The notes beneath the pieces are model-generated. The model worked only from the letters and a program-made list of their open reading frames with translations. It was not told the origin of the DNA and did not search any database. Made by a program: the position numbers and the translations under genes. From Puniceicoccus vermicola (GTDB lineage Bacteria > Verrucomicrobiota > Verrucomicrobiia > Opitutales > Puniceicoccaceae), in contig NZ_JACHVA010000101.1 of NCBI RefSeq assembly GCF_014230055.1, positions 62,001-126,000 of the forward strand: DNA of 64,000 bases, given 5' to 3'. This document shows positions 39,101 through 58,352 of the stretch, piece after piece; the stretch's first letter is position 1, and each line of letters starts with the position of its first letter.

Positions 39101-40657
39101 TTATTCCCCTATTTCCGTGATCTCGAAAGGAGAGGCGGGGAGTCCGGCTCCATTGAATAGGTAGGCTTCCGGAGTGTCTGTCCAAGCGTAACGCACTCTG
39201 GTTGGAGAATCGATTGAGGGAGACCAGACCCGAACGGAATTGCCATGGATTGCGGTTTCAGCGGGAAGGTAGCCGGAATTGTTGTCGGCGATTTCGAAGC
39301 CCCCTAGCGATCCGTCTTTCGCCGCGAGCCCTCCCTCGATATGATTAAAAGTTATCTCGACTACTGTTCCGTCTCGGGTTGACGTTTTCACCACGGGGCC
39401 TGAGAAGGGGATCTCCTCGCCGTAGGTATTTGCGCGTGCGAACCGGGCCAAGCGTTCGCCGACCGGACGTTTGTTTTTGGGGTGGATGTTATTCTCGTTT
39501 CCAACGTCGATGGTGACGACCATGCCAGTCTTGGGAACATTTTGCCAAGTCGAGAGTTGAGATTGGCGTGTGGTTGGCCAGATCCCCGGGCGTCCGCCAT
39601 ATCCGGGGAGCTGCACGAAGTAGAAGGGGAGGGTTTCGCCCCAAGCGTCTCTCCAAGATTGGATCATTTCAGGGAACAAGGTGCCGTATAAGGCAGCGTC
39701 CTGGAGATTGTTGGAGTTTGCTTCACCCTGGTACCAAATCACTCCTCGAATGGGGAAGAACCTCAATGGATGAATGTTACTATTGTAGTAGATTGTGGGT
39801 GCTTTGCGGAGACGAAACTCTTGGCGCCATTCTGGTTTTGGCGTCTGGATTTGTTCGTTTTTCGGGAGCTTTGTCCAGATGGTGAATTGTTTCTTCCACT
39901 CCCTGTGGCTGGCTCTCATTTCGTCGTAAATTTCATCCCAGCTATCTTCTAGATCAGGATAGGCTTCATAGAGATCGTCGAGGTCCCGAGTGTATGGACG
40001 GAGGATCGGATTTGCTCTCAGGTTTTCGCTGGGCATCCACGCCTCAGCAGGTGTTCCTCCCTTGTTGCTACTAATTAAGCCGACGGGGGTTCCTAGTGCC
40101 TCGGAGAGATCGAGTCCGAAGAAATACCCGACGGCAGAGAACTCCCGAATTGTCTGTGGTGTCACCTTCTGCCATTTGCCTGCAATGTCATCCTGAGGAT
40201 TAATGTTGGGGCGGCGTCTCGCTTCAAAGAAACGAATTTCTGGAAAATTGGCTTCTCGAATCGCTGATTCCCCTCCGTCAACGTTCTGCAGTTTCATCTG
40301 CATATTGGACTGACCTCCACAGAGCCAAACTTCTCCGACCAGAACATCTTCAATTTTGACGATCTGCTGGTCACCCTCAACGCGGATCGTTTCGGGCTGC
40401 GCGTTCGCTTCCGCCGCAGGTAGCTCAATGAGCCATGTTCCGTCGGATCGGGTTCGAGTTGAGCGGGTCGAATCGAGAAAAGTGGCGCTGATTTCGGCAT
40501 CCGGAGTGGCCCAGCCCCAGAGTTTGATCGGCTTTTCCGCTTGGATGACCATGTGGTCGCTTAGGATGGAGGGAAGTTTCAGCTCGGCCTGCGCGGTTAT
40601 TGCGAAGAGAAAGGCCGAGAGGACGGGAAGAAGGGGAATCTTTCGGAGTGACATCAT
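39101..40657 (-). CDS. Secreted sialate O-acetylesterase
   Basis: This encodes 518 residues with a signal peptide (LLPVLSAFLFAITAQA). Family blocks: LPSILSDHMVIQAEKPIKLW, GEVWLCGGQSNMQM with the catalytic Ser, RGVIWYQGEANSNN, and VTIDVGNENNIHPKNKRPVG with the catalytic Asp/His. It is shorter than the 689-aa relative at 17300-19369 because it lacks the inserted jelly-roll. The start lies 3 bp after the stop of the upstream sulfatase, so the two are almost certainly co-translated. It is expected to deacetylate glycans outside the cytoplasm. Confidence 0.92.
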   Translation of the reverse strand: MMSLRKIPLLPVLSAFLFAITAQAELKLPSILSDHMVIQAEKPIKLWGWATPDAEISATFLDSTRSTRTRSDGTWLIELPAAEANAQPETIRVEGDQQIVKIEDVLVGEVWLCGGQSNMQMKLQNVDGGESAIREANFPEIRFFEARRRPNINPQDDIAGKWQKVTPQTIREFSAVGYFFGLDLSEALGTPVGLISSNKGGTPAEAWMPSENLRANPILRPYTRDLDDLYEAYPDLEDSWDEIYDEMRASHREWKKQFTIWTKLPKNEQIQTPKPEWRQEFRLRKAPTIYYNSNIHPLRFFPIRGVIWYQGEANSNNLQDAALYGTLFPEMIQSWRDAWGETLPFYFVQLPGYGGRPGIWPTTRQSQLSTWQNVPKTGMVVTIDVGNENNIHPKNKRPVGERLARFARANTYGEEIPFSGPVVKTSTRDGTVVEITFNHIEGGLAAKDGSLGGFEIADNNSGYLPAETAIHGNSVRVWSPSIDSPTRVRYAWTDTPEAYLFNGAGLPASPFEITEIGE

Positions 40658-40660
40658 CAG

Positions 40661-42052
40661 TTAGCGGATTAGGCGCTTTTCAGATTCGAGGTCCATATTG
40701 TTATGCCTTTGGGGGAGGTCTCCTTCTTGGAAATCTACCTCCAACCAAGGGTCATTGGTTTCTCGGCGGAGTTTGGTAAGTTGTTGGCGATACGATTCAA
40801 TAAGACCCTGAAGTTCAGGATCGTTGATCAAGTTACGCTTCTCGAACGGATCCTCTTCGAGATCATAGAAACCTTCCCGGTCATGGTGGAGGAGACGTTC
40901 CTGAGTTCGTTCCGCAGACCCGCCGGTAGAGAGGATGGCATGATAGGCGGGAGAATCGAATAGGTCAGTGGGAAGTGGTAGAGGACTTTGGTAGGCGAGA
41001 TTGCGGATATATTTATATCGAGGGCCCCGGAGAGCCCGGTAAGGGAAATAGTTAACGATCTCATGAAAACTATGAGAATACGCGACTGGCTTGAGCCACT
41101 CTTTCGCGTCGGGATCCTCGAGAATTGGAAGAAGACTTCTTCCCGGCATGTTCTCGGGCCACTGTTCCAGAGGCACTCGGAGCGCTTCAAGAATTGTGGG
41201 CAGGATGTCGCACCAGTTGACCAGCGACTGGGTATGGCTTCCGCCCTTGATGTCGGGATGGGAAATGATCAGAGGACAGTTGTGCCCGGCCTCGAAGGAG
41301 CTCGCTTTCGCTCCGGGGAAAGGCATGCCATGGTCTGATAGGAGGATGACGAGGGTGTCTCTTAATCGGTCTTTTTGCTCGAGCGCTGATAGGGTTTTTC
41401 CTACGAAATCATCGAATCGGGTGATGTACCGGTAGTATTCACAGAGATCGTCACGTACCGCCGGGGTGTCGGGTAAGTACTCGGGGATGGGAATGGTCTC
41501 CGGATTGTAGCTCTTATCGATGCCGGAAAATTCTTGTGTAGCAAAGTTGGGGTCAAAATCGCCACCGATTCGATGGGGATACCCGGATGCAGTCAGGAGG
41601 AAAAACTGCTTGGATCCGATTGCATCCAAGCAGTCTTCGATTGCGTCCGAAAGGTGCTGGTTTGAGAATTTTGCAAGTTCCGGTTTCATTAGTTCCCTTC
41701 GGAAATCGAATGGGTATGACTCGTCGGGAGCAAAATGGGTTTTTCCGGCGAGGGCACTGGTAACGGGCGTGCTCCTCAATACCTCGGGCAGTGTCTTCAT
41801 CGAGGGAAGAGTTCGAAATCCATGAATCCCTTGGCAATGGCCGTATTGCCCGTGGGTATGACTGTATTGCCCTGTGAGGATATTGGCCCGACTCGCTGCG
41901 CAGGAAGGTGTGGTACAAAAAGCGCGATCGAATACTGTCGACTGACGTGCTAGCTTGTCGATGTGGGGGGTATGGGCGATCGGATCCCCATAGCATCCGG
42001 CAATGGGCGACCAATCATCTGCGATCATGAGGAGAACATTGTTTACAGGCAT
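40661..42052 (-). CDS. Type I sulfatase, sulfamidase-like (CAASR active site)
   Basis: This encodes 463 residues without a signal peptide. It begins NNVLLMIADDWSPIAGCYGD and has the signature CAASRANILTGQYSHTHGQY; the C-x-x-S-R core with Ala is usual in heparan N-sulfatase-like enzymes. It also has VILLSDHGMPFPGAK and the late FYDLEEDPFEKRNL block. N- or O-desulfation cannot be decided from sequence alone. Its promoter region is shared divergently with the prepilin-like gene and carries an inverted pair of TAACTGTAA sites. Confidence 0.93.
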   Translation of the reverse strand: MPVNNVLLMIADDWSPIAGCYGDPIAHTPHIDKLARQSTVFDRAFCTTPSCAASRANILTGQYSHTHGQYGHCQGIHGFRTLPSMKTLPEVLRSTPVTSALAGKTHFAPDESYPFDFRRELMKPELAKFSNQHLSDAIEDCLDAIGSKQFFLLTASGYPHRIGGDFDPNFATQEFSGIDKSYNPETIPIPEYLPDTPAVRDDLCEYYRYITRFDDFVGKTLSALEQKDRLRDTLVILLSDHGMPFPGAKASSFEAGHNCPLIISHPDIKGGSHTQSLVNWCDILPTILEALRVPLEQWPENMPGRSLLPILEDPDAKEWLKPVAYSHSFHEIVNYFPYRALRGPRYKYIRNLAYQSPLPLPTDLFDSPAYHAILSTGGSAERTQERLLHHDREGFYDLEEDPFEKRNLINDPELQGLIESYRQQLTKLRRETNDPWLEVDFQEGDLPQRHNNMDLESEKRLIR

Positions 42053-42101
42053 GAGATCTAGGATGATCGAGGCCGAAGGGCGATCAATTGGTGTGGATTT
42101 G

Positions 42102-42195
42102 TAACTGTAATAAATTTCTGTTAGCTCAGGACCTGAGATAGTGATGAAGGGGATCGGTTTTTAACTGGGATTTGGATTGAGAGCTATTACAGTTA
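42102..42195. promoter_or_regulatory. Inverted pair of TAACTGTAA operators (motif 2)
   Basis: TAACTGTAATAA begins at 42102 and TATTACAGTTA ends at 42195, facing each other in the divergent region between a sulfatase and the prepilin-like gene. The 9-bp cores TAACTGTAA and TTACAGTTA are exact reverse complements, 85 bp centre to centre, about eight helical turns. Each core is itself a near-palindrome, TnACnGTnA. The same pair recurs at 48791-48867 and 52261-52300. Looping by a LacI-type repressor is a reasonable inference. Confidence 0.65.
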
Positions 42196-42253
42196 AAAAG
42201 TTTCCTTGGTGGTGAATCTGAGTCGATTCCGCATCATGGAGTTTTCTGTTCCG

Positions 42254-45200
42254 ATGTTGACCCCAAACCACACGAATCGAAATTCACAGCGTGGATTCGC
42301 GCTGATTGTGAGCTTAGGCCTTCTCGCATTCATCGTGCTATTACTGCTTGTGCTGGGAAATCTGGTTTCGATTGAATCGAGCCAAGCTTCATCAGTTCGC
42401 ACCGAAACCCGTGCCCGAGAGCATGCTTTACTGGGATTGCAGGTGGCCATGGGTCAGTTGCAAGCTGCAACGGGTATTGATCGTGTCAGTACCGGGCCGG
42501 TAAATGTTGATTCGAGTCTGGCGGTCGATGATTCGAAAAAGAATTGGACCGGTGTTTGGGAGAATCGCGGAGTCTTTGATCCGGTTGCCAATGTTCAGGA
42601 ATACGATCCCTCCCTGATCACGGTTTTAGTCTCCGGAGATCCGACCGCGGATTCCCTGGCCTCACCTTCAGCTGGAGTTCGGATCCTGGGCGAGGGGACT
42701 GTTAACGAACCGAATGATTATGTAGAGGTCCCACTGGAGCCTTTGGGGGGGGCGACTCCAACCGGGAATTTCGCCTATTGGGTTTCGGACGAGTCAACGA
42801 AGGCTCGGGTGAATTTGATCGATCGGTATGACGCTCAGGCCGGAAGTCGGGTTCCTCTTGTCTCCTCTCAACGAAATGGTCTCGAACTCATGGATTTGCA
42901 GTCGGATCCCGGAAAATTCATGGGCGACGATTATCCGGCGAATGACGGTCGACTCGAGAAGGTCCTTTTTCTCGATCAATTTGCACAGACAGTGGCTTCA
43001 GGGAGTGTTTTTGAGGCTCTGAATCGTTCTCGCTACCATGATCTTACGGCGATGTCCCGTTCGATACTTACCGATGCGCGCCGGGGAGGTTTGAAAAGGG
43101 ACCTGACTCAAATGCTTCGCAACGACTCTTTACCTACGGGATACCTTTACCAGAGTGAATCATCTGTATTGAGTCGGACGTCCGTCCCGGGACCGGCATG
43201 GAGTCTCATTCAGGACTTCTACGATCTATCCAACAGTCTGAGTCCAAATCTACTCGAAATGAGTCCGCGTGAGGGAAAGAAGGATCAGGCCGATAGTTCA
43301 AATCATTTTGGACCGATCGGGCCAAGTTTGACTCAGGTGAAGTTGTACTTCGATTTCTCCTTCAGCACTGACGGTCATCTCAGAATGCATATGTTTCCGG
43401 CAGTCGTCCTTCATAATCCTTACAACGTATCTTTGACCGAAGCCAATTATCTCTTCTCTTTTCCTCAACACAACGAGCAGAGTGCTACGGAACTGGAGGT
43501 CGATATTCAAATGGATGACGGGAGCTCGAGAACCTTTGGTGGGTATCATTTTAAAGAGCCCAATCCCATTTTTCTCGAGGGAGCGAATAGTGGAGAGATT
43601 TATTTTACTGCGAGGAATCTTTCTTTTGGGCCCGGGGAGGTGAAGGTCTTGACCCTGGGTTCGACTGCTCCCTACCAAGGGCCGGTAAACACAGCTCTCG
43701 TGACGACTGAGAATCCTGATCGTAATTCGTATCAGTCCAATCAATTGGAGGAAGGATTCTCTGACCTGAATAGCGCCTTTATCGAATTTCAGGATTCACT
43801 CGCTGCCGGAGAGGTTCCGGAGTTCTACAGCTTTTCGTTGGTCAATGGGGGATCGTTACGATTCCGGACCGAACTGCTTGGGGTTGTCGGAAGTAATTTT
43901 CTCAGTTTCTATGATGGTGTTGGGTATAATCAGTTTAGTCTGGGCGGGACTTCGGCTCCCATTCAGCAGGACGATAATGCATCGGTATTTCCCGTGGCGG
44001 GTTTTAGCTACAAAATGGATTTGGGATCGGTTCGCCAATTAGCGAGCTTCAACTACCACAGTGACCATATTTCTCAGAACGGTTACGAAACGGAACATTC
44101 AAATTTGGCGCCGCGTCTTTTCGTTGGTGACTTCGGGCAGGGAGATTTTTCGGTAGATGGACCTGCTGGCAGCCCGGCCAATGCATATTTTGGCCCGTCA
44201 CATGGTAGCGATGGATTCACTCGTGTCGTCTTTTTCGAAATTCCGCCAAATGATCCCGGTTTGATATCACTGGGGCAACTGCAGCATCTTGATCTGAGCA
44301 CAAAGCTGATGAGTCCGGGGCAGGTCTATGATCGATCAACCCATAATTCTCCGACCTATGCCTTTGGAAATTCTTTAGCGCTTCCGACGGTGCCGCGTGA
44401 ATCGCATTTCTATGATGGTGGCACTTCTAATTTTCATTCGCTGCGCACCTATTTCGATACTTCCTATCGATCCAATGAGGCACTTTGGGATGGATATTTC
44501 TTCTCTACTGCACCGGAGACCGTCGGGCCATTAGTGAATCGCCGATTCACAATTCGGAACTCCTCGGTAGATATGAATGCCGACCCTTTTGCGTCGGCAG
44601 GGAATCTGTACTTGGAGGGTGGATTCAATGTGAATAGTACATCCGAGTCGGCCTGGCGGGCGGTTTTAGCAGGGATTCGTGACTACGACTTAAGAAAACA
44701 GGACGGATCATTGCAGGGATCGGTGGACAACCTATTCTCTCGGTTCACCTTGCCCATGGGGAACGCTATGGCGGATCCGTTGGAGTCGGATGTAGATGCT
44801 TGGCAGGGCGTTCGCCGTCTTTCGGATGGTGATATCGGGATTCTTGCCGCGGAAATCGTCCGAGAGGTGCGCGCTCGGGGCCCTTTCTTGTCGGTTGCAG
44901 AATTCATCAATCGACGCCTCGTGGATGAGAATCATCCCAGTGCTGATCTTGGCCTGTCAGGAGCTTTGCAGTCAGCGATCAATGCGTCTGGTCTCAATCA
45001 TAATGTGAGGGGATCGCCGGTGACCGCAGCACCTCCTGAGACGAGTTTTCCGGCTCCCGAGCATTTTTATGGCTACGGTTCCGATTTCGCGCCCGGATTT
45101 TTGTCCCAAGGGGATCTGGTCACCTCGCTGGGCCCTGTGTTGACGACTCGTGGGGATACCTTTTTGATTCGCAGCTACGGAAACGCGTTGAATTCAGTGG

Positions 45201-45358
45201 ATTCACACCAGATTGATGCGGAAGTATTGCTGGAGGCGATCGTGCAGAGGGTTCCTGAGAAATTGGATCCGACCGAAGCGATCGAGAGCGGAGACACTGG
45301 ATCTGAATTTGGCCGTCGGTATAAATTGGTATCCTATCGCTGGCTCGATAACCCATGA
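42254..45358 (+). CDS. Large prepilin-like protein resembling Verru_Chthon cassette protein A
   Basis: This encodes 1034 residues from ATG 42254; ATG 42236 is an equally possible start giving a longer leader. The N-terminus is prepilin-like: a short polar leader ending in QRG, then FALIVSLGLLAFIVLLLLVL, the hydrophobic stem, and an amphipathic helix (RTETRAREHALLGLQVAMGQ). The very long beta-rich body ends with the features I associate with the Verru_Chthon cassette A family: AAEIVREVRARGPFLSVAEF, INRRLVDE and a final YKLVSYRWLDNP. It would be processed by a prepilin peptidase and anchored in or exported across the inner membrane. Its role is unknown. ATGA couples it to the next gene. Confidence 0.78.
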   Translation: MLTPNHTNRNSQRGFALIVSLGLLAFIVLLLLVLGNLVSIESSQASSVRTETRAREHALLGLQVAMGQLQAATGIDRVSTGPVNVDSSLAVDDSKKNWTGVWENRGVFDPVANVQEYDPSLITVLVSGDPTADSLASPSAGVRILGEGTVNEPNDYVEVPLEPLGGATPTGNFAYWVSDESTKARVNLIDRYDAQAGSRVPLVSSQRNGLELMDLQSDPGKFMGDDYPANDGRLEKVLFLDQFAQTVASGSVFEALNRSRYHDLTAMSRSILTDARRGGLKRDLTQMLRNDSLPTGYLYQSESSVLSRTSVPGPAWSLIQDFYDLSNSLSPNLLEMSPREGKKDQADSSNHFGPIGPSLTQVKLYFDFSFSTDGHLRMHMFPAVVLHNPYNVSLTEANYLFSFPQHNEQSATELEVDIQMDDGSSRTFGGYHFKEPNPIFLEGANSGEIYFTARNLSFGPGEVKVLTLGSTAPYQGPVNTALVTTENPDRNSYQSNQLEEGFSDLNSAFIEFQDSLAAGEVPEFYSFSLVNGGSLRFRTELLGVVGSNFLSFYDGVGYNQFSLGGTSAPIQQDDNASVFPVAGFSYKMDLGSVRQLASFNYHSDHISQNGYETEHSNLAPRLFVGDFGQGDFSVDGPAGSPANAYFGPSHGSDGFTRVVFFEIPPNDPGLISLGQLQHLDLSTKLMSPGQVYDRSTHNSPTYAFGNSLALPTVPRESHFYDGGTSNFHSLRTYFDTSYRSNEALWDGYFFSTAPETVGPLVNRRFTIRNSSVDMNADPFASAGNLYLEGGFNVNSTSESAWRAVLAGIRDYDLRKQDGSLQGSVDNLFSRFTLPMGNAMADPLESDVDAWQGVRRLSDGDIGILAAEIVREVRARGPFLSVAEFINRRLVDENHPSADLGLSGALQSAINASGLNHNVRGSPVTAAPPETSFPAPEHFYGYGSDFAPGFLSQGDLVTSLGPVLTTRGDTFLIRSYGNALNSVDSHQIDAEVLLEAIVQRVPEKLDPTEAIESGDTGSEFGRRYKLVSYRWLDNP

Positions 45359-46080
45359 ATCGGATGAGACTTCTGGCGATAACATCTCTTCGGCTTTCGA
45401 AGATGAAATTGGCATTGGCCGCCTTCGTGGTTTGGGTCACGCCTCTTTACTCACAACCCTCACCAGAGTATGATGTTGATTGGGTGGCAATGAGTCTGGG
45501 AGAGACTCTTCGTGACGTCTATTATCAGGGGGCTTCGGGTCTGGAACGATTATTCGTCCCCAACGCCGGTTTCTCCGCCGTGCAGAAATATGCGGGACCC
45601 AGTCCTTTCTATCTCTATGAAATGGTTGAGACTTTGGAGGGCCCAAAGCCGGAGCCGATCGGGAAGCTTAATTTGCCTCCGGAACTGCATGAATTGACTT
45701 TGTTCGTTTTTGAGGCTCGTAAAGGTGAGCTTCCTTACGAGATTTATGCCATACCTGGAGTTCCAGAGGGAATCCCATGGTTCCATGCACGGTTGATTAA
45801 TCTTACCCCGTATTCGTTGGCCGGATATCTTGACGGGGAAGCGTTTCAACTTTCGCCTGGAATGGATGACCTGTTGGAATATGAGGGGAGTGAGAGTGGA
45901 GCGGTGTCGATCCGGATCCAAGTCGCATCCAGAGAGGGCGAGAGCTGGAGTCCACGAGTCAATACCAGCGTTGGAGTTCGGAGTAATACACGGTTGACCG
46001 TTCTATTCCGTATGGATGGCGAAAAAATCGAAATGATTTCCATTCGGGAGACGGTTTCCCAGCGGGCATTATCTGATTAG
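45355..46080 (+). CDS. Small exported protein coupled to the prepilin-like gene
   Basis: This encodes 241 residues; the start overlaps the preceding stop (ATGA). An internal Met at 45403 directly before LALAAFVVWVTPLYSQ is an alternative start, and either choice leaves a signal peptide. The rest is a soluble, mostly beta protein without a named domain (VYYQGASGLERLFVPNAGFS, YEIYAIPGVPEGIPWFHARL, VNTSVGVRSNTRLTVLFRMD). It is likely a partner of the prepilin-like protein, as small exported proteins often follow such genes. Its stop overlaps that of the convergent LacI gene. Confidence 0.75.
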   Translation: MNRMRLLAITSLRLSKMKLALAAFVVWVTPLYSQPSPEYDVDWVAMSLGETLRDVYYQGASGLERLFVPNAGFSAVQKYAGPSPFYLYEMVETLEGPKPEPIGKLNLPPELHELTLFVFEARKGELPYEIYAIPGVPEGIPWFHARLINLTPYSLAGYLDGEAFQLSPGMDDLLEYEGSESGAVSIRIQVASREGESWSPRVNTSVGVRSNTRLTVLFRMDGEKIEMISIRETVSQRALSD

Positions 46081-47123
46081 CTAGCAAGTGATACGGGACT
46101 TCCAACTCTTCGAAGAGTGCTCCCGGGAGTCCATGAAGGTTCGAGGAGGTGAATTATGCGAGAGTCGGGAATGCCCCGTTCATTGCGCTCGATCAGGCTG
46201 CTTAAGATTTCCATCGATTTGCGGCCAACCTCGTCCTGCCTTCCGTCGGCGTGAGCCATACCTTCCACGCGTTTGAGATAAAATGGGCAAGCGTATCCAA
46301 TGTCTTCCGGCGTCTTTAGTTCCCGGACTGCTTGCAGGTGCTGAAAGAGTTCCGGACCCCCGATGATCGCGTCGGGTTTGTATTTATCATACCATAAGCC
46401 GATTTTTTCTTTAGCTTGCGATTCGGAAAAGACCGGGATTCGTTTCAGTCTCTTCGGAAGTTTGTTTTGCATTGCCAAATATGCTCCTGAATAGCGGTTC
46501 TGAACTCGTTCGTCTTGATCTTTCTGGAGCACTAAACCGATTCGCCGATACCCATAGTTGGCGAGTTCCTGAAAAATGCGGGCTACGACCGCAAATATAT
46601 CGGTGAATATGAGATGGAATCGAGGAGCTTCGAGTGAGAAGCCCAGCTGGACGACCGAGAAATGTTGCCAATCCATTTCAATCTCTGAGTGGGCTCTCGT
46701 CTGGGGACCGAGTACCAATCCCTGTATCCCTCGCGAAAGCAGGATTTGGCTGGCTCTTTGGCTCTTCAGGCCTTCTTCGTGCATCCAGAACTCTCGAATC
46801 ATGTACCCAAGAGACTCTCCCCTTTCTGTGGCACCGGAAAAAATCTGTGAATGAAGAGGAGAAGTTTGCGTGAGGTTAGGTTCAGGAGTGTTGTTGATGT
46901 AAGCGATGCTTCCGCGAAACTTCTGGGTGCTTTTCAAATTGCGGTAGGAGATTAGAGCGCGAAGAGCCGGGTCAGGAGTGAACCCCATTTGCTTGGCGAC
47001 AGCTCGCACTCGTTCCCCTGTCTGTTGCTTGACCCGGGGAGAGTTTCGAAGGGCTAGGGAAACGGTCATCACACTGACGTTTGCCTCTCGGGCGATGTCT
47101 CGCATGGAAACTCGGGATTTCAT
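46077..47123 (-). CDS. LacI-family transcriptional regulator
   Basis: This encodes 348 residues from ATG 47123, which directly precedes the helix-turn-helix (SMRDIAREANVSVMTVSLAL); an upstream in-frame ATG at 47183 adds an unrelated leader. The hinge and a full sugar-binding-type domain follow (GIQGLVLGPQ, YRRIGLVLQKDQDERVQ, PDAIIGGPELFQHLQAVREL). It belongs to the same subgroup as the regulators at 58745 and 61889 (each has a 'W..F..V..G' segment after the hinge region). It lies between the promoters that carry paired TAACTGTAA sites, making it the best local candidate for that motif. It is encoded downstream of a sulfatase on the same strand. Confidence 0.92.
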   Translation of the reverse strand: MKSRVSMRDIAREANVSVMTVSLALRNSPRVKQQTGERVRAVAKQMGFTPDPALRALISYRNLKSTQKFRGSIAYINNTPEPNLTQTSPLHSQIFSGATERGESLGYMIREFWMHEEGLKSQRASQILLSRGIQGLVLGPQTRAHSEIEMDWQHFSVVQLGFSLEAPRFHLIFTDIFAVVARIFQELANYGYRRIGLVLQKDQDERVQNRYSGAYLAMQNKLPKRLKRIPVFSESQAKEKIGLWYDKYKPDAIIGGPELFQHLQAVRELKTPEDIGYACPFYLKRVEGMAHADGRQDEVGRKSMEILSSLIERNERGIPDSRIIHLLEPSWTPGSTLRRVGSPVSLAS

Positions 47124-47215
47124 ATTTTTCTGGGGAGGCGAAAAAGGAGGTCCTATTTCTACTCCAAATGGTGTGACTGGCAATCGGAATCCTCATTCGG
47201 GTTCCAGGGCATACG

Positions 47216-48688
47216 CTAGAGACGTTGCGGATATCGCATGCGCCAGCCCTTTCGAGTGAAATTGGCGTCCTCACTCAGGGGAGTTCCACGGGTCAAAATT
47301 TTGTCTTCGTGGCCGGATACTGCCTGGCGGTGTATTTCTCGGCTAAGGAGAGCCTGGAGTTCAAGGGCGATCGTCTGGACCTCGGGGTCTTCAATTCTGT
47401 TTGTCGTTTCCCGTGGATCGGTCTCCAGATTGTAAAGTTCACCGTACCCATAGCGGCTATACTGTATAAATTTCCAGGCGCCTCGGCGAATCATTGCCAT
47501 ACGGTCGAGGATACCGAAGATCGGTGTCGAACGACTATCGTCAGAATCTTCGATGGGCAGAGGAGGGAAGTCCCAGTGTTCGGGCTGACTGATTTTTGCC
47601 GTATCGAAAAATGTTCCGGTTATCTCTTGTAGGATAGCGGGTGTTTGCAGTCTTCTGGGGGATACTTGATGAGGATACTTCACGACGAGTGGCACTCGAA
47701 TGCTCTCTTCAAAGAAATCGCCTTTTCCTACCAGACCTCGATCGCCCACGTGATCTCCGTGGTCGCTTGAAAATGTAAAGAGGGTGTTTTCCCAGAGTCC
47801 TCGTTGTTGAAGGGCGGAAACGATTCGACCTACTTCCTCGTCAACCTGCCGGATTAGTCCAGCGTAGTGGAGGCGGATCGCTTTGCGCTGTTTCACTGGA
47901 AAGTCACTGTAGTCAAGGTCGTGCCACGCAGATCGGGTATTGGCAAGAAAGTCGTCGTAGAATGTTTTCGGACCTCGGTCGGTTCGGTCAGGATCGGGAA
48001 TCAGAGGAGGGAGTCCTTCGGGTTCGATCGACTCGAGATACTCGGGAACAGGATCGTAGGGGCAATGAGGACTGGGCAAGCCAACCATGAGGGCAAACGG
48101 ACGCTCTGAGGGTTGTTCGCGGATCCATTTCGCAGCCGCTTCGCCTACGTATCGATCGGGGGTCAACTCAACCTTGTAGGGGAAGTGGATGGCTCCTTTT
48201 TTCTTCCGGTAGTTCGGATGTTGGCGAGCATCGAATTTCTCGAGATTCCGACGGGCCAAGTATTCGGCGAAGTCGTCACGGACTTTGGGCCATCGCTTGT
48301 CTTCTGCAATAATTCGTTCCTCAAAACCTTCGCTGGCTTCGAACGGATGAAAATGCATCTTGCCAATGGCGGCCGTGTGATATCCGTGGTCCCGAAGGTG
48401 CTCGGGCCATGTTTTGAAACCCATTTCAGCGCGGTCTGGGCGCAACCAATGATTGTTGCTGAGTACGCCGCTCCGCAACGGATGGAGTCCGCTTAGCAAA
48501 GCCGCCCGCGCCGGAACGCAGATCGGATACGGTGAGTAGGCATTTTCAAAGACTGTCGCCCCCCTTGCGATTGAATCCAGGTGTGGAGTCTTTAGCCCCT
48601 GACAACCATAGAGCGGCAGGAAATCTGCCCTTAGCTGGTCCGGCAGGATTAGGACGATGTTCGGGGGCTTTTTAGGGCTGGATGGCAT
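47216..48688 (-). CDS. Type I sulfatase (CVPAR active site)
   Basis: This encodes 490 residues without a signal peptide. It starts PPNIVLILPDQLRADFLPLY and has the signature CVPARAALLSGLHPLRSGVL with Cys as the formylglycine precursor. It also has TAAIGKMHFHPFE, LFTFSSDHGDHVGDRGLVGK and ELYNLETDPRETTNRIED. It reads away from the paired-operator region at 48791-48867 and probably forms a unit with the LacI gene 92 bp downstream. Confidence 0.93.
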   Translation of the reverse strand: MPSSPKKPPNIVLILPDQLRADFLPLYGCQGLKTPHLDSIARGATVFENAYSPYPICVPARAALLSGLHPLRSGVLSNNHWLRPDRAEMGFKTWPEHLRDHGYHTAAIGKMHFHPFEASEGFEERIIAEDKRWPKVRDDFAEYLARRNLEKFDARQHPNYRKKKGAIHFPYKVELTPDRYVGEAAAKWIREQPSERPFALMVGLPSPHCPYDPVPEYLESIEPEGLPPLIPDPDRTDRGPKTFYDDFLANTRSAWHDLDYSDFPVKQRKAIRLHYAGLIRQVDEEVGRIVSALQQRGLWENTLFTFSSDHGDHVGDRGLVGKGDFFEESIRVPLVVKYPHQVSPRRLQTPAILQEITGTFFDTAKISQPEHWDFPPLPIEDSDDSRSTPIFGILDRMAMIRRGAWKFIQYSRYGYGELYNLETDPRETTNRIEDPEVQTIALELQALLSREIHRQAVSGHEDKILTRGTPLSEDANFTRKGWRMRYPQRL

Positions 48689-48790
48689 GATGTTTTCCGA
48701 TTTTGAATGGCGAAGAATGGTATCCGCAGATCTTAGATTCTAAGTTCATCGTTCTGTTCGGAAATATGCGGGACAATGTGAATGTGTTTA

Positions 48791-48867
48791 TAACTGTAAA
48801 AAATGCTCAAAACGGGCCTGACTAAAGTGGATTAGAGGAAGCCTCAGCGAGGGCGTTATTACAGTTA
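48791..48867. promoter_or_regulatory. Inverted pair of TAACTGTAA operators (motif 2)
   Basis: TAACTGTAA (48791-48799) and TTACAGTTA (48859-48867) face each other, 68 bp centre to centre, between a sulfatase (minus) and a 2-hydroxyacid dehydrogenase (plus). Both cores are identical to those at 42102-42195 and 52261-52300. The left site is flanked by AT-rich sequence (TTTA before, AAAAA after). Confidence 0.65.
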
Positions 48868-48991
48868 GAAAAACGACCCCATTGCCTGGAGGGTGTTTCG
48901 ACGAAGATGATCGTATGATGACTCAGGCATACAATTTTGACCTTCGGAAGTACACCATTTGCGGCGGCGAGCCGATACTGGTTGTTGTGCT

Positions 48992-50041
48992 ATGAAAGGA
49001 GAAATGGACCTAATCTCGAGTACTTCGATTCCAGTGAACCGCAAGTCTGCTCGATTGCTCGCCATATTGAACGAGGAGGAAAGTCGGACGTTCTTTCCCT
49101 GTGGTTTGGATGCGGCGAGCGGTGGCATTCCCTGGGAGTTGAAACAGGTTCTTCCAGAGAACTGCACGAACTTAGAGGATTTAATTCGAGAATATCAACC
49201 GACCGTGATTATTGGGGCCTGGTCGACTCCGCTCCTGCCGGAGGTTGATGGTCAGTCGCCCGCTCCGTATTACTGTCACGTTTGTGGATCGGTTCGAAAA
49301 CAGGTCCCGCGGACGATGATCGAGAAGGGTATGATCGTCACGAACTGGGGAAATACAGTTGCGGCGATCGTGGCCGAAACGGCACTGATGCTGGCCTTAG
49401 CCTCGTTACGTAATCTCACTCATCATTTTTATGCGATTCACTTGGAGGATGCGTGGAGACGTGAGACACCCATTCCGGCGGAAAGCCTCTATGGAGCCCG
49501 GATCGGGATTCACGGTTTTGGATTAATCGGTCAAGAATTGTCGAGCTTGCTAAAACCTTTCGGGGTGAGGACTTTTGCGTATGATCCTTATCAGGATGAA
49601 TCGGTTTTTAAGGCAAAAGGTGTCTCTACAGAGAGCTCCTTGGAGGAGCTTTTCTCGTCGAGTGATGTCCTTTTTGAATGCTGTGCGTTGACGGATAAAA
49701 CTCACGGAATCGTCTCACGCTCACTCCTTGAGTCGATGCCTAACGGTGCCCTTTTTGTGAATGTGGCCAGAGGCAAGTTGGTTGATCAATCGGCGTTAAC
49801 CGAGCGGGTGGCGAATGGATTCCTGCGCGCTGGATTGGATGTATTCGACAACGAGCCTCTCGCTGGCGACTCACTCCTGCGAGGGGAGCGAAATTTGGTA
49901 GCGACTCCCCATATTGGCGGAAATACGGCGGATGCTCGCGTTAAAGCTGGCCGCCTCGCCCTCGCGAACATCAAACGGTTCCTCAATGGGGAAGAACTTA
50001 CCAGCACGGTGAGTCCTGAGCAGTTCGATATGATGACTTGA
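48992..50041 (+). CDS. D-isomer-specific 2-hydroxyacid dehydrogenase family protein
   Basis: This encodes 349 residues from ATG 48992; an in-frame ATG at 49004 directly after GGAGAA and one at 48959 are alternatives. The NAD-binding core has GARIGIHGFGLIGQELSSLL (G-x-G-x-x-G), an acidic strand end in FAYDPY, VNVARGKLVDQSAL carrying the catalytic Arg, and LDVFDNEPL with the catalytic Glu. TPHIGGNTADA carries the catalytic His. Cytoplasmic reduction of a keto acid, or oxidation of a hydroxy acid, derived from sugar breakdown is likely; the substrate is unknown. It is divergent from the sulfatase and shares the paired-operator region. Confidence 0.92.
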   Translation: MKGEMDLISSTSIPVNRKSARLLAILNEEESRTFFPCGLDAASGGIPWELKQVLPENCTNLEDLIREYQPTVIIGAWSTPLLPEVDGQSPAPYYCHVCGSVRKQVPRTMIEKGMIVTNWGNTVAAIVAETALMLALASLRNLTHHFYAIHLEDAWRRETPIPAESLYGARIGIHGFGLIGQELSSLLKPFGVRTFAYDPYQDESVFKAKGVSTESSLEELFSSSDVLFECCALTDKTHGIVSRSLLESMPNGALFVNVARGKLVDQSALTERVANGFLRAGLDVFDNEPLAGDSLLRGERNLVATPHIGGNTADARVKAGRLALANIKRFLNGEELTSTVSPEQFDMMT

Positions 50042-50085
50042 GGCTTTCCCATCTTGAATAACCGTATTCAGTATAGCCGATAAAG

Positions 50086-50109
50086 CAGGCAGAGTTCGAT
50101 CTCTGCCTG
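50086..50109. terminator. Stem-loop between convergent genes
   Basis: CAGGCAGAG (50086-50094), a 6-nt loop, then CTCTGCCTG (50101-50109) form a perfect 9-bp stem. It is centred between the dehydrogenase (plus) and the heparinase-like gene (minus), so it could serve both. There is no clear T-run on either side. Confidence 0.55.
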
Positions 50110-50134
50110 TGCGTGTAGCAAACGGATCGGGGGT

Positions 50135-52177
50135 CTAGTCGAGGATCTCTGAGTGGCCGTTTTTTTCATAAATGACGGAGCCTGTGGAGGCGTCGAGAGT
50201 CAGTTGTCCACTCATATCCTTCGGATTGACAAGTTGGAATAGGGTTGCCCATTTTAGCTGCGTCCCGGGTTGTGCCTGGACCGTGAGGACATTCTTTCGA
50301 ATCTTTCCCTCCTTCTTCATCCACTCGATTTGTTCTTTGACGATGAGCGAGGCATCGGTTTTCTCTAGGGGAAGCATAGTTACATTGAACTCGCTGTCCC
50401 CGACAGAAGTCCGGGCGTGAAGGCTGTCCGTCAGGAAAAATGAGCTTTCGCTGTGAAAAATCGCTTCGGCTGTTGCTGGCGATTGATGATGGATCTCGTC
50501 AATAATGATCCAAGTGGTTGCATCGACGAGATAGAATGTCCTCGTGCATCGAATGAGACCGGGATCCCGATAGGCCGGGGTGAGGTCGCATTGGATCCGT
50601 GTGATTTGATGGTTTGTATCGACCGAGACAATTCTCGGGAAACGCTTCTCCCGAGCATAGGCGTCTGTATGGAGCCAGTTATCGTTGGATCCGATCTGGC
50701 TGTTGCCGTTTACGAGAAGTGTATTTGCATAGGAGGTTTGCCGGTCCTTGGTATAACCGGGAGGGGCGATCAGCCAACTCCGATTGCCGAATACCAAAAA
50801 CGTTCCGGCATCCGGCTGGCTGTGGCTGCTGCCTGGATTGAATGGGTAGGTTTCGGTCGTGAAACGGCCGCCGGGAGGAGTGGACTTGATGCCGATAACG
50901 GTACCGTTTCCCGTCCAGGAGCTCCGCCAAAGAAAGATTCCCTGCTCTTTGAACCAGTGTTGAGTCGGAAGATTTTCGGGCGATTGTGGCTGTACTTTCG
51001 GATCGTACCAGATCAGGCCGAGAAACCGAGTTAGTGGATTGTGGCCCGTAATGTTTCTTCGATTTTCGTCGGACAACCATTGGGCGAGCCCACTCCGGTA
51101 CTCTCTCGCGAGATAAGTCATGTATTTCGTGTAATCGTGCCAGCTCTTCGAGGGGCCGTCGCCGAAATTGAGAACGTCAAGCCTGGGTCGAGTCAGCCCG
51201 GCCGAGTTCGTTTCGACGAGTCTGCTCTCGGGTGGGAGGAGAAAGTAGGCCTGGGCGAGTGGAACGTTCTCCAGTCCTTGGTTCCCGCGAAACCAGTCAA
51301 TGCCAAGATTCTCTTTGGCGATCACCCCAATCGGGACCAGCGCCGAGAGGCCGTATTGCCAGTAGGGAACTCCTTCTGCTGCGAAGAACCCGTCGGTATG
51401 GGATAATGCTTCAAAGGTAGGTGCGGCGACTTCCATAGCCTTGTGGATAATGGCTTGGGCCCGCGGATCCTCGTTTCTCAATGAAACCCCAACAGAGATA
51501 AGACCGAGAAGTCGTAACGCATTGTGGTTATTCTGATAGCCTGGGAGGCCTTTCCCATTTACAAATTCGGCCATTTGGGTCGCGCGTGCCAGTAGCTCTT
51601 CTTGAATCGTAGCGGTGACTTCACTGGGAAGATCAGGTCCGCACCAGTCATAGGCCAATGACAGGCCGAACATAACGTGTGCTCCGGCCAAATCGACGTT
51701 CGGGCCGCCGTATTTATGAACTCCCCACGCTGGTAAGTTGAGGACATAGTTGACGGTCTCTAGGAGAGCTTCAAGATCCTCTTCACGTTGTTCGAGCCGA
51801 TAGAGGAAAGAAAGCGCGGCGATGAAATCTCCCGCAGGTCGGAGGTCGGACATCGCATTGTTCGGGCGGGGTTCGGTGTCCTGCTCCCAGTCGAATCGAT
51901 CCATTCGGGCTTCTAGTGATGTTCGCAACCGGGCAATCTCGGAAGCGTAGGGCTCTTTGTTGAGACGGGTTTGCAGAAGTTCCCATTGTTGCGGGGAGTG
52001 GACGAATAGATGTGGTTGTTTGCCGGTAGCAAAAAACGAGTCTTCAGAGGCTTGGGGGCGCGAGGGAGTCGGATTGGCAGTTTTAGGTCCTTCAGTTGCA
52101 TCTCCGGTGCATCCGGTACTCTGCTGGGTGAGAATGGTTCCGAGGCAAAGTGCTAAAATTGGGATTATTTTTTCCAT
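50135..52177 (-). CDS. Exported heparinase II/III-like polysaccharide lyase
   Basis: This encodes 680 residues from ATG 52177; an upstream ATG at 52210 is possible. A signal peptide ending in QSTGC suggests a lipoprotein, though the lipobox is weak. The first ~370 residues form a helical toroid (GAHVMFGLSLAYDWCGP, YQNNHNALRLLGLISVGVS, GFFAAEGVPYWQYGLSALV). The C-terminal beta-sandwich begins around IFLWRSSWTGNG and has HSQPDAGTFLVFGNRSWLI with a catalytic-type His. The layout is that of heparinase II/III and oligo-alginate lyase families; the exact PL family is not assigned. It is expected to cleave uronic-acid polysaccharide outside the cytoplasm. The promoter carries the paired TAACTGTAA motif. 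Confidence 0.85.
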   Translation of the reverse strand: MEKIIPILALCLGTILTQQSTGCTGDATEGPKTANPTPSRPQASEDSFFATGKQPHLFVHSPQQWELLQTRLNKEPYASEIARLRTSLEARMDRFDWEQDTEPRPNNAMSDLRPAGDFIAALSFLYRLEQREEDLEALLETVNYVLNLPAWGVHKYGGPNVDLAGAHVMFGLSLAYDWCGPDLPSEVTATIQEELLARATQMAEFVNGKGLPGYQNNHNALRLLGLISVGVSLRNEDPRAQAIIHKAMEVAAPTFEALSHTDGFFAAEGVPYWQYGLSALVPIGVIAKENLGIDWFRGNQGLENVPLAQAYFLLPPESRLVETNSAGLTRPRLDVLNFGDGPSKSWHDYTKYMTYLAREYRSGLAQWLSDENRRNITGHNPLTRFLGLIWYDPKVQPQSPENLPTQHWFKEQGIFLWRSSWTGNGTVIGIKSTPPGGRFTTETYPFNPGSSHSQPDAGTFLVFGNRSWLIAPPGYTKDRQTSYANTLLVNGNSQIGSNDNWLHTDAYAREKRFPRIVSVDTNHQITRIQCDLTPAYRDPGLIRCTRTFYLVDATTWIIIDEIHHQSPATAEAIFHSESSFFLTDSLHARTSVGDSEFNVTMLPLEKTDASLIVKEQIEWMKKEGKIRKNVLTVQAQPGTQLKWATLFQLVNPKDMSGQLTLDASTGSVIYEKNGHSEILD

Positions 52178-52260
52178 AGATTGATATGAGGGGAGTTCCG
52201 GGTATGACAAATAACTTTGTATGGAAGAGAAAACGGGGATCGCAAAGAAGGTACCGTTTC

Positions 52261-52300
52261 TAACTGTAAACAGAAGAGCGGGGTAGAATTATTACAGTTA
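52261..52300. promoter_or_regulatory. Inverted pair of TAACTGTAA operators (motif 2)
   Basis: TAACTGTAA (52261-52269) and TTACAGTTA (52292-52300) are 31 bp apart centre to centre, about three helical turns. They lie between the heparinase-like gene (minus) and a PEP-CTERM gene (plus). This is the tightest of the three pairs. Confidence 0.65.
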
Positions 52301-52351
52301 ATATTTATACCTTCTTTATTCGGACGAGCTTAGAGGTATTTTGCTGGAGTT

Positions 52352-53698
52352 ATGAATATCCTACCTCACTACCAACCGTATTCTCGCAAACTCGTTCCTC
52401 TTTTAATTGGCATGGTTCCGGTTTTAGGTCTTCAGGCAACTGACTACCAATGGGATAGTTCTTCCTCTGGGGGATGGGGGGATTCCATCAATTGGAGTCC
52501 GGTCGGAATTCCCGGAGTTTCAGATAACGTGACCGGTGCCAGTCAGTTGGGCAATCTCGAAGTCCGTGGAAACGAGTCAATTGATAATTTTAGCTACGCA
52601 GGCAATATCGGTAACTGGCAGGTCGTCGGCGTTGGGGATGTTAGTTTATCGATCGGCGGGACATTATCCTTATCAGGTGACGATAACCTGGCTTTCCGGA
52701 AGTCCTCTGGATCAAATACGTTTGATCTATCGGTCAACAATATCGACATGTCGGGTTCGGGCATTCTATTGGTTGGGGCCAATAACAGTGTAAACTCGAT
52801 TCAGAATCTTTCTGTCTCGGGAACGACATCAGTAGGCACCGGGGGGCAGCTAAGGATAAATGTCGATAACGATTACAGTATTGGAGAAGTCGTTGCCTCA
52901 GGTGGGGGAGAGGTCTATCTCAATTCAGCTCCTCAGGATAAAGGCCCGATCATGGCAACCAGTTCGGGGCTTTCCGGTGGTGGAGGTACCATTTTTGGAG
53001 GTCTTTTTTCTGGGAACGCAACGACTCTACGGATTGAAGTCCTTTCGGCAAAGAGTTCGGGAACGGTTCTGGCAGATCTAGATTCTAGTCTTGCTCTCGT
53101 CGTAGCCGGTAGCTCATCCCAGACTTTATACGGAAACAATACCTATACTGGAGGCACGGAAGTCGAGTCGGGGTCTTTGGTCGCGGGGTCGACCAGTGCG
53201 CTGGGATCTGGCAATGTCACGGTTAATGGAGGCACCCTGGATAGCGAATCTAGTGTAGTTCATATTGGAGGGTCGCTTAATCTGAATGGCGGAGAACTCC
53301 AGATCAATGGGGAGAATATTGGCAGCTACCAATTGGCATCGGGAGAGGTCCTTACCTTGGATGGAGGGACGATCGTGTTCGACTACGATAAGGATGCCGA
53401 AATCAATGATGTGATCACGAGTTTGGGCGGGGCGGCGATGTTTAATCTGATTGATGGGATCATTGACCTCGGCGGCTCTGATTGGGATTATTCTACGACC
53501 TATACCCTGTTTTCCGGTTTTGATTCGGGCACTGTGGGAACGATCACCTTTGAGAATTATGATACGGCGAATTGGGAAGCGAGTCTGAATAGTTCTGGAG
53601 AATTGAGTTTTGAGGCGATACCTGAATCCCAAGCCATTCTGACTGTGATTCCCGGTGTGGTCGGCCTTTTTGTGCTGTTCCGTCGCCGCCGCAAATAA
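52352..53698 (+). CDS. PEP-CTERM-like surface protein with beta repeats
   Basis: This encodes 448 residues: a signal peptide (KLVPLLIGMVPVLGLQAT), then a Gly/Ser/Asn-rich beta body with autotransporter-associated strand units (NNTYTGGTEVESGSLVAG, LGSGNVTVNGGTLDSES). The C-terminus is sorting-signal-like (IPESQAILTVIPGVVGLFVL, then FRRRRK) but has PES in place of PEP. The predicted role is a surface or matrix structural protein. Its stop overlaps the next ATG (TAATG), so it is co-translated with a lectin-like protein. Confidence 0.83.
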   Translation: MNILPHYQPYSRKLVPLLIGMVPVLGLQATDYQWDSSSSGGWGDSINWSPVGIPGVSDNVTGASQLGNLEVRGNESIDNFSYAGNIGNWQVVGVGDVSLSIGGTLSLSGDDNLAFRKSSGSNTFDLSVNNIDMSGSGILLVGANNSVNSIQNLSVSGTTSVGTGGQLRINVDNDYSIGEVVASGGGEVYLNSAPQDKGPIMATSSGLSGGGGTIFGGLFSGNATTLRIEVLSAKSSGTVLADLDSSLALVVAGSSSQTLYGNNTYTGGTEVESGSLVAGSTSALGSGNVTVNGGTLDSESSVVHIGGSLNLNGGELQINGENIGSYQLASGEVLTLDGGTIVFDYDKDAEINDVITSLGGAAMFNLIDGIIDLGGSDWDYSTTYTLFSGFDSGTVGTITFENYDTANWEASLNSSGELSFEAIPESQAILTVIPGVVGLFVLFRRRRK

Positions 53699-54435
53699 TG
53701 AGGCTACGGAGTCTATACGGATTCGTAGGGTGCACTCTCTGGGTCTCTTTGATGAGCCACTATGTGTCGGGTTCCGAGCCGGTGGACCTCTCTACAACTT
53801 CTCTTGAAGTAGACTGGTTTGCAGTGGAGACCTTTGAGTCTGAGGATTGGGAAAATCGTTGGGTGGTAGAGTCGCAAGGTCCACGGGCATATATTGAAGC
53901 GGGTGAACTCAAAGTGCGGCCGGTCGACAACAATCGAAAGCAGGCAGGCACTACGATCTGGATGCGTCAGGCGTTGCCCCCCGATGTCGTGATTCGGGTG
54001 ACGGCTTCGACCGCAGCGGTTGAGGGAGACAATGCATGTAACCTGAATTTTTTCGTTCATGCTCGGGAGGAGAATGGATCCGCGCTGCAGTTTGGTCGCA
54101 GTGGGCTTTATCGGGACTATCACTCGATTCCCAATTACATCTTCACGCTGACTGGAGGGTTCATGCCCGGTTGGGCCAGAGCCCGTCTGGATCCCGGTTT
54201 TCATCTCCTGAGTGACCAGCGGCAGTTTCGTTCCGAGCCCGACACCGATTACGAGTTTGTGATTGTCGTCTCGGGTCCTCGTTTGCGCTACTTTTTGAAT
54301 GGCAGGAAAGTTCACGATTTCACTTTGGATGATCCTCTGGAAGGAGGCTGGTTCGGCCTACGAACGTGGTTCTCCAGTGTCAATTTTGAGCAGGTGCAGA
54401 TCGGACGACTGATCGGTGAAACTCCTCAAGGTTGA
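53698..54435 (+). CDS. Exported concanavalin-like lectin domain protein
   Basis: This encodes 245 residues with a signal peptide (LYGFVGCTLWVSLMSHYVSG). The body is an all-beta jelly-roll with NLNFFVHAREENGS, HSIPNYIFTLTGGFMPGWAR, PGFHLLSDQRQF and a final GGWFGLRTWFSSVNFEQVQI. It resembles DUF1961/DUF6250-type proteins of the concanavalin A-like superfamily, which are often found with carbohydrate-active enzymes. Binding or cleavage of glycan cannot be told apart here. It is translationally coupled to the preceding PEP-CTERM protein. Confidence 0.72.
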   Translation: MRLRSLYGFVGCTLWVSLMSHYVSGSEPVDLSTTSLEVDWFAVETFESEDWENRWVVESQGPRAYIEAGELKVRPVDNNRKQAGTTIWMRQALPPDVVIRVTASTAAVEGDNACNLNFFVHAREENGSALQFGRSGLYRDYHSIPNYIFTLTGGFMPGWARARLDPGFHLLSDQRQFRSEPDTDYEFVIVVSGPRLRYFLNGRKVHDFTLDDPLEGGWFGLRTWFSSVNFEQVQIGRLIGETPQG

Positions 54436-54570: not shown

Positions 54571-56304
54571 CTAGCTCTTTCGTCTGTTTCCTGCACGAAG
54601 CATCAACCCGGATATTGAGCCGATGAAGAATGCCACGGACAGAATGGCCAGTCGGCCTGTCCAGGGATTGGGAATGAGTGCGAGCGCCCCGATAAAAAGG
54701 GTGATCGCGAGTCCGAACCGGCCGAGAAGACGAAGCTGTACATCGTCGTTGGCCTCACCGATTTCCTTTTCGAAGTCGACCGGAGTGTGCATTTGCAAAA
54801 AGAAGTGATCGACTTGCTTTCGATATTGTTGCGAGGAGTGCTTCCAGAAAAGGGCCGAGCCGAGAAATCCAACTGTGCCGGCGCAGAGGTTGTAGAGAAT
54901 CTGTTCTTGGAAGTTCCAGGATGCTCCGAAAAGCTCTGCGCTGTAGTGCCCGAGTACGGACGGAATGAGTGCAGCGATCACTGAAGAAACCGCGGCCCAG
55001 CGGGGAACGCGGCGAATGAACAGACAGAGGAGGAGCGGAACCGCCAGAGGAATCCCGAGCATTGCCCCGATTAAGAGCATGATGTCGAAGATCCCCTTGC
55101 CATCTTGACCAGAGAAGTAGAGTGCCAGGGAGATGATCGAGGCACCGAAGAATATGGTGAAACCTCGTCCTATCCAAAGTCGCCCAACAGCCTCGCTGGG
55201 AGTGATACCAAGTATTTTACACAGGCTGGGATAGACATCCTGGGTGATGATAGCGGCATTCCGGTTCAGGCCCGTATCCATAGAACTCATCGTTGCAGCG
55301 AAGATCGCGACCACCATGAGGCCAACGAGCCCATCCGGCAGGAGAGAGAGACTCATCAGTGCGTACGAGGCTTCGGCTGGCTTGGAAATTTCAAGCGCGT
55401 CTATTTGGTCTGCGATGAGAAGTCGAGCCGCCATGGGTGGAACGATCCAAACCACGATCCCAACGGTCATCATGATACAGGCGAGAAGGGCGGCTTTGCG
55501 GGCTTCTCTGCCATCTTTGACGGCGAAATATCGGGGCGCGGCACCTAAAGTATTGTAACTGAAAATATTTTTGCAAGCCATCGCGATGGCCCAGGTAATG
55601 GTGAAAGAGCTGGCGGTGAATCGCCCGGGTTCGTTGAACAATTGAAAGTCCTGGCTAAGGCCTTGGCTGCGGATTCCCTCTAGGAGACCGCTGAATCCTT
55701 TCAATTCGATGAGGCAGAGGATGCAGACCAAGAGAGTGAGAGGTATCAGGATCAGGCTTTGGAGGAAGTCCGTCGCCATCACTGCCCAGCTCCCGCCCGT
55801 AAGAGAATAAAAAAGAACGACGAACCCAATCACGACAATCACTCCCTTGATGGGAAATCCAAAAATAGCGGAGGTGAAGAGAGCGAGCCCGTAGAGATGA
55901 AGAGCTCCGTATAAAAGGGCCGTTATGACCGAGAACCCCGCGTAGAATTGCTGGGTTCCCACCCCGAAACGATTTCGGATGACCTCTGGTGCAGTAATAG
56001 CCCGCATTTGTCGAAACCAAGGAGCGAGAAACAGAAAGTTGAGGAAGAATCCGATTGCGTTGGAAGCGTAGATGACGGTTACGGACCACCCGCTCTCAAA
56101 AGCGACTCCGGCCGCCCCTGTAAAGGTCCACGCACTAAAGGAGGCCATAAAGGCACTGGAACCGACAAGATACCAGGTGCCTTTGCATCCGCTGCGAAAA
56201 TAGTCACTTACATCGGTACTTAATTTGCGCAGAGCGAATCCAACACCGAGGAGCATAACCAGATAGCCCCCGATTACCACGTATTCTATGTTGCTTGGAG
56301 TCAT
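54571..56304 (-). CDS. Sodium:solute symporter (SSS family)
   Basis: This encodes 577 residues with about 14 hydrophobic membrane spans (YVVIGGYLVMLLGVGFALRK; VIVVIGFVVLFYSLTGGSWA; LILIPLTLLVCILCLIELKG; FFIGSISGLMLRAG). Family features include the early DYFRSGCKGTWYLVGSSAFM stretch, the GGSWAVMATD segment and AATMSSMDTGLNRNAAIITQ. It is an inner-membrane importer, probably of a sugar or sugar acid with sodium. Its ATG overlaps the stop of the isomerase-like gene upstream (ATGA), tying uptake to catabolism. Confidence 0.93.
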   Translation of the reverse strand: MTPSNIEYVVIGGYLVMLLGVGFALRKLSTDVSDYFRSGCKGTWYLVGSSAFMASFSAWTFTGAAGVAFESGWSVTVIYASNAIGFFLNFLFLAPWFRQMRAITAPEVIRNRFGVGTQQFYAGFSVITALLYGALHLYGLALFTSAIFGFPIKGVIVVIGFVVLFYSLTGGSWAVMATDFLQSLILIPLTLLVCILCLIELKGFSGLLEGIRSQGLSQDFQLFNEPGRFTASSFTITWAIAMACKNIFSYNTLGAAPRYFAVKDGREARKAALLACIMMTVGIVVWIVPPMAARLLIADQIDALEISKPAEASYALMSLSLLPDGLVGLMVVAIFAATMSSMDTGLNRNAAIITQDVYPSLCKILGITPSEAVGRLWIGRGFTIFFGASIISLALYFSGQDGKGIFDIMLLIGAMLGIPLAVPLLLCLFIRRVPRWAAVSSVIAALIPSVLGHYSAELFGASWNFQEQILYNLCAGTVGFLGSALFWKHSSQQYRKQVDHFFLQMHTPVDFEKEIGEANDDVQLRLLGRFGLAITLFIGALALIPNPWTGRLAILSVAFFIGSISGLMLRAGNRRKS

Positions 56305-57134: not shown

Positions 57135-57172
57135 TGCGATGAAATCCTGTGAGTTTTCCGGGGGGGCACCGT

Positions 57173-58190: not shown

Positions 58191-58352
58191 CTTTTCGTCG
58201 GGAAACGTCTTGAGTGATAAATTACTCGGAGCGTGCGACTCAATTGTGCACGAATTTTAACTGTATTATCCAACGGTGGAGGGCCACCTTCTTCCTTTCC
58301 AAGGGCGACCTCCCATCGAGTAGGAGTCAATCCCTGTGCGAAAGGGGTATTG

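Follow-up and report, generated by a model that had tools for sequence, protein, structure and literature searches.

Oriented boxes at a fixed distance from predicted promoters point to a probable LacI-family-activated regulon in Puniceicoccus vermicola

Three successive divergent intergenic regions of the 64-kb stretch of Puniceicoccus vermicola DNA analysed here (the window) each contain an inverted pair of TAACTGTAA, raising the question of whether these are paired operators or have another organization. As the first-pass annotation described, exact pairs are present at 42102-42195, 48791-48867 and 52261-52300 with centre spacings of 85, 68 and 31 bp, and all six copies were recovered (42102, 48791 and 52261 on the plus strand; 42187, 48859 and 52292 on the minus strand). 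This is the most common repeated 9-mer in the intergenic DNA of the window, with none other equally frequent; its chance expectation in the window is 0.06, and none of 100 dinucleotide shuffles reached six copies. The 5.2 Mb assembly contains just 11 copies; six lie in the window, and more than half are thus concentrated in a single 10-kb stretch. Read toward its adjacent gene each of the six exact boxes is TTACAGTTA, and the consensus in that direction is TTACARTTAnAA. As read from the sequence, the three inverted pairs are six putative promoters with one directional box each, not paired operators, and they have the appearance of inverted pairs because each of the divergent genes carries its own gene-facing box.

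The predicted targets lie on both sides of each region. In the first, an element at 42085-42110 (minus strand; box 42102-42110, TTG 42085-42087) faces a sulfatase gene (40661-42052) and a SASA esterase-like gene (39101-40657; together 39101-42052, minus strand), and the sulfatase ATG at 42052 is at the predicted transcription start (index 58). The opposing element (42187-42212, plus strand) has a box at 42187-42195, TGG at 42210-42212 and a weak -10, CATCAT (42232-42237), and precedes the operon for a Verru_Chthon-A-like, prepilin-like secretory protein and its partner (42254-46080, plus strand). In the second region, the element at 48774-48799 (minus strand; box 48791-48799, TTG 48774-48776, -10 AACGAT at about 48748-48753) faces another sulfatase gene (47216-48688, minus strand), followed in the operon by the LacI-family gene 46077; the element at 48859-48884 (plus strand; box 48859-48867, TTG 48882-48884, -10 GATGAT 48906-48911) faces a D-2-hydroxyacid dehydrogenase gene (48992-50041, plus strand). 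In the third, a heparinase II/III-like lyase gene (50135-52177, minus strand) is preceded by an element at 52244-52269 (minus strand) with its box at 52261-52269 and TTT at 52244-52246, and an operon for a PATR/PEP-CTERM-like protein and a DUF6250 protein (52352-54435, plus strand; first ATG 52352) by an element at 52292-52317 (plus strand) with its box at 52292-52300, TTT at 52315-52317 and the -10 TATTTT at 52337-52342. A seventh box with one mismatch is located at 58258 (TAACTGTAT; ATACAGTTA read gene-ward) in an element at 58241-58266 (minus strand; TTG 58241-58243), upstream of an operon (54571-58117, minus strand) coding for a 314-aa protein (57173-58117), a xylose-isomerase-like TIM barrel protein and an SSF symporter. 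Two related single sites had been proposed earlier, and this one stands, having a downstream TTG and an exact box at the orthologous operon elsewhere; the other, at 62958 (TAACTGTTA), sits 1 bp before the ATG of LacI gene 61889 and lacks the downstream element. Sites 62958, 62194, 62365 and 55556 were set aside as having no TTG at +23 or as lying inside coding DNA.

When 18 gene-ward sites are aligned, a further element turns out to be conserved: TTG, occupying positions 23-25 from the first base of the box. When G035 sites are added (21 in total) T23 is present in 21, T24 in 19 and G25 in 18, these being counts from the set in which the box, the TTG and the -10 were spotted by inspection; the independent test is that of genomes G116 and G137 only, where boxes were gathered without demanding a TTG, and T is at +23 in all 12 sites and TTG in nine. 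For all sites combined the figures are 33/33 for T at +23 and 27/33 for TTG, with the site counts taking in related genomes and divergent-pair sites with shared sequence. The gap between the box end and this -35-like element is 14 bp, and the box centre is 19 bp from it. In the first set, all three scoring rules put -10-like hexamers best at positions 45-47 (19/21 by the lax rule, versus a mean of 8.3 elsewhere). For the test sites these positions give 11/12 by the lax rule versus a mean of 5.2, with starts 44 and 46 tying, and tie for best by the nAnnnT rule; the strict 4-of-6 rule gives no peak there among the 12 G116/G137 sites. Altogether 30 of 33 sites have a -10 at 45-47 by the lax rule, against a mean of 13.5 elsewhere, although the hexamers are weak, and the layout is that of a sigma-70 promoter, with TTGnnn, a 16-18 bp spacer and a -10-like hexamer.

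Two short boxes with fixed spacing and orientation, and hexamer starts 23 bp apart, are also typical of sigma-factor promoters in general, and one could read TTACAR as the -35 and the TTG, after a 17-bp spacer, as the -10 of an alternative sigma promoter. We consider this very improbable, as a separate sigma-70-like -10 is present 16-18 bp past the TTG in both site sets, ATG codons pile up at the start that matches this separate -10, and there is no linked sigma factor among the cluster genes scanned. Reading the box itself as a -10 (TACART as TAnnnT) was rejected: the box has no -35 ahead of it, and what the -10 and the ATGs later showed points elsewhere.

A -35 at position 23 predicts transcription starting near position 58, and this matches a peak of ATG codons at 57-60 from the box start (nine per 3-bp window versus a mean of 2.4). 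The 40661 sulfatase and PATR genes start at the predicted position, each in both the window and G041. It is a reasonable inference that several of the genes have leaderless mRNAs, because they have start codons close to where transcription is predicted to begin; the window PATR gene has a ribosome-binding-like GGAG near its ATG, and is a poor fit to leaderless transcription. Upstream of the dehydrogenase gene, a 25-codon leader ORF (48918-48995, plus strand) begins at the predicted start, and G041 has one likewise (L049 17651-17782). The two differ in sequence, start at 58/59, and at their end overlap the start of the dehydrogenase gene by ATGA (ATG 48992 in the window), which suggests that leader and dehydrogenase are translationally coupled.

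The element is found in the same orientation in five further Verrucomicrobiota genomes (G041, G654, G035, G116 and G137). Conservation of the sites in relatives, on which the first-pass annotation had made its proposal depend, is observed, with boxes kept at orthologous genes in these five, and every gene-assigned box faces its gene. In G041, from the same order but a different family, the lyase is 61% identical, boxes face both genes in the lyase/PATR region, and the symporter operon has an exact box. A second G041 contig contains orthologues of 39101, 40661, 42206, 45355, 46077 (76%), 47216 and 48959, and boxes there, some of them as TTACAATTA, point toward the same genes. The box pattern is repeated in G654, which has the lyase, the symporter and a 48% LacI, and in G035, G116 and G137 (55%, 46% and 44% LacI, respectively). 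The closest genome, G002 of the same genus, has no lyase or 46077-type LacI at comparable identity, and the cluster is therefore patchily distributed. A lyase search of genome contigs and a sulfatase search of viral contigs found no relatives. Several TTACAGTTA copies in G611 are in a repetitive gene array without regulon genes and were set aside; at two loci there (L078 and L077, in G611:C22 and C17) up to eight TTACAGTTA-like boxes, mostly TTACAGTTA itself, precede small repeated genes.

The relatives also bear on the significance of the pairs. Several boxes are single, and single co-directional boxes are common (e.g. G137 10370, 11972 and 17986), which argues against the pair as a functional unit. 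Within divergent regions the two boxes are 19 to 98 bp apart, and spacings of 85, 68 and 31 bp become 38, 53 and 40 bp at orthologous pairs. Across 14 pairs there is no 10.5-bp helical phasing of the spacing (R 0.08, Rayleigh p ~0.9). The DNA looping that had been envisaged is therefore not favoured, the spacings being neither conserved nor helically phased. A classical LacI repressor, in which 46077 occupies paired inverted operators and represses both genes, possibly by a loop, would be in keeping with the family, whose members are mostly repressors with tandem or divergon sites common (PMC4052901), and the box does have a pseudo-palindromic form, TnTnACnGTnAnA. However, the sites are upstream of the -35 and not over the promoter, the -35 spacing and orientation are invariant while inter-site spacing is free, and there is a single site at many promoters; we regard this explanation as quite unlikely, and the position of the box predicts activation instead of operator repression. 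Fixed distance and orientation relative to the promoter, with free distance between boxes, would fit an activator touching RNA polymerase and not a looping repressor.

The regulator proposed to bind the box is the LacI-family protein encoded by 46077 (46077-47123, minus strand; probable start Met at 47123), which lies inside the regulon. It has an N-terminal LacI HTH (PF00356, E 1.2e-16) and a periplasmic-binding-like sensor domain (PF00532, E 1.3e-7). The hinge leucine after the HTH is present in PxxALRAL, aligned by eye with PNxxARSL, which we take to be the canonical LacI hinge motif. Within its own genome 46077 has 38 matches, many presumably local regulators of other clusters. Its orthologues are 76, 55, 48, 46 and 44% identical in G041, G035, G654, G116 and G137, respectively, and the clade and the box co-occur in six genomes. 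Loci of the clade (LacI at least 44% identical to 46077) have 33 copies of TTACARTTA in 181 kb, versus two in 688 kb of control loci, most of which surround LacI relatives at a greater distance. The box-bearing clusters have the recognition helix VSVM[TA]VSLALR in common, and it is different in G369 and G128, both without the full box; an exception is G023a, with the same helix and a single variant box, TTACAAGTAAAA, with TTG at +23. A paralogous cluster (L123; G023:C1:1586001-1606000) encodes a 40% LacI and has TTATAGTTA variants before orthologues of 40661, 39101 and 42206; T is at +23 in 5/5 of these G023 boxes, and box and regulator may be co-evolving. The earlier idea of one LacI regulon linking these genes thus survives, with 46077, whose clade tracks the box in six genomes, as its regulator. 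LacI 61889, also put forward at first, does not: its only match in the G041 regulon stretches (~30%) is the 46077 orthologue, leaving it without a close orthologue there, and the 62958 site at its start is without the composite element.

An unlinked transcription factor could instead bind the box, with the LacI gene a passenger target. The box is asymmetric, without CG and unlike LacI sites, and since every genome has its LacI gene as a regulon member, the two would co-occur in any case. We nonetheless find this unlikely, as the box follows the LacI clade and its recognition helix, no second regulator recurs among the clusters scanned, and no other repeated motif is left in cluster intergenic DNA as a LacI target. 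An IclR gene adjoins the G041 symporter operon, and was rejected as the binder because it has no close counterpart in the window's genome (best match only 24%). A de novo gapped-word scan for a general box-TTG architecture at other LacI loci gave nothing clear outside the clade; its leads were weak ACAATT-N15-TTG words in L127, L082 and L085, and the totals did not exceed chance. Elsewhere in the window, CAGGATGCCTGCCTGTG words are repeated in direct and inverted orientation at 59926-59998, between LacI 58745 and the GH3 gene 60054, and are a candidate operator of LacI 58745.

The reading we prefer, to which we assign a probability of roughly 0.68, is that this is one regulon in which the 46077 LacI activates through one oriented box per transcription unit at a fixed spacing from the -35. 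The protein would bind TTACARTTAnAA, at one site per transcription unit and in constant orientation, and would recruit or stabilise sigma-70 RNA polymerase at a weak -35 (TTG) beginning 23 bp from the box's first base and 14 bp past its end, with a weak -10 16-18 bp after TTGnnn; several mRNAs would begin at or beside the start codon. What can be taken from sequence alone is the box, its orientation, the fixed spacing, the -10 position, the conservation and the LacI-clade association. Binding by 46077, the transcription start and the sugar signal we infer, as we do activation rather than repression, because a box 14 bp upstream of the -35 is at a published CcpA activation position.

Comparison with known systems is informative. 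CcpA activating sites are centred -21 or -31 from the -35 (PMC2329647), and another account puts CcpA activation at 14 bp upstream of it (PMC6882875). As with CcpA and cre in Firmicutes, a LacI-family protein is proposed here to act on one helical face from a site lying ahead of the -35 (PMC2329647, PMC6882875), and the sites have this arrangement, at a CcpA-type activating distance and with a fixed helical face. CcpA, however, regulates globally, with mixed repression, and its near-palindromes are centred on CG, whereas here the regulon is local, the box asymmetric and free of CG, and the spacing always the same. AraQ and MalR1 of Bifidobacterium breve, also of LacI type, have sites at a similar upstream distance, 15-16 bp from the -35 of genes believed to be activated (PMC6882875), but these are 20-bp CG-centred palindromes at several distances, serving central metabolism. 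Local LacI regulons of polysaccharide clusters likewise have the regulator inside its own cluster, autoregulated and concerned with sugar catabolism, but are usually governed by repressors with operators over the promoter. Cra/FruR recognises imperfect palindromes and activates from upstream sites. It resembles the proposed regulator as a LacI-family dual regulator with an activating role (PMC4052901), but its regulon and motif are unrelated. Of 1303 LacI-family regulators, 1251 have even palindromes and 1173 a central CG (PMC4052901); the 33 sites here do not have this canonical motif, the box being an odd, imperfect palindrome without CG and of invariant asymmetry, and for this reason a symmetric dimer would not be the first binder to expect. 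Our literature searches on LacI activators or promoter motifs in Verrucomicrobia returned almost nothing, and no paper on LacI regulators or promoters of Verrucomicrobiota came up.

The closest solved relatives of the lyase are an oligo-alginate lyase and a PL35 chondroitinase, and a fair guess is therefore that the substrate is a sulfated, uronate-containing polysaccharide, a breakdown product of which is probably the sugar signal. Two copies of a 403-bp direct repeat (38321-38723 and 58354-58756) are 93% identical and 20,033 bp apart, and within each is a nearly perfect 25-bp inverted repeat (38567-38591/38655-38679 and 58600-58624/58688-58712); the copies, which flank the regulon, resemble a small mobile or hairpin element.

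Verrucomicrobiota degrade sulfated algal polysaccharides with large enzyme sets, and for one such regulon the analysis provides a predicted full promoter layout (box, -35, -10 and likely start) in six genomes, with regulator and targets named. It makes the idea of a LacI-family activator reading a directional, non-palindromic site open to testing, and the layout can serve as a template when the many sister LacI clusters are decoded. Whether the Verrucomicrobiota clade consists of dedicated activators, with an asymmetric orientation-locked box, one -35 distance and leaderless mRNAs, is a tentative and somewhat doubtful extension; if true, it would represent a distinct mode for the LacI family, possibly shared by other LacI paralogues beside sulfatase clusters.
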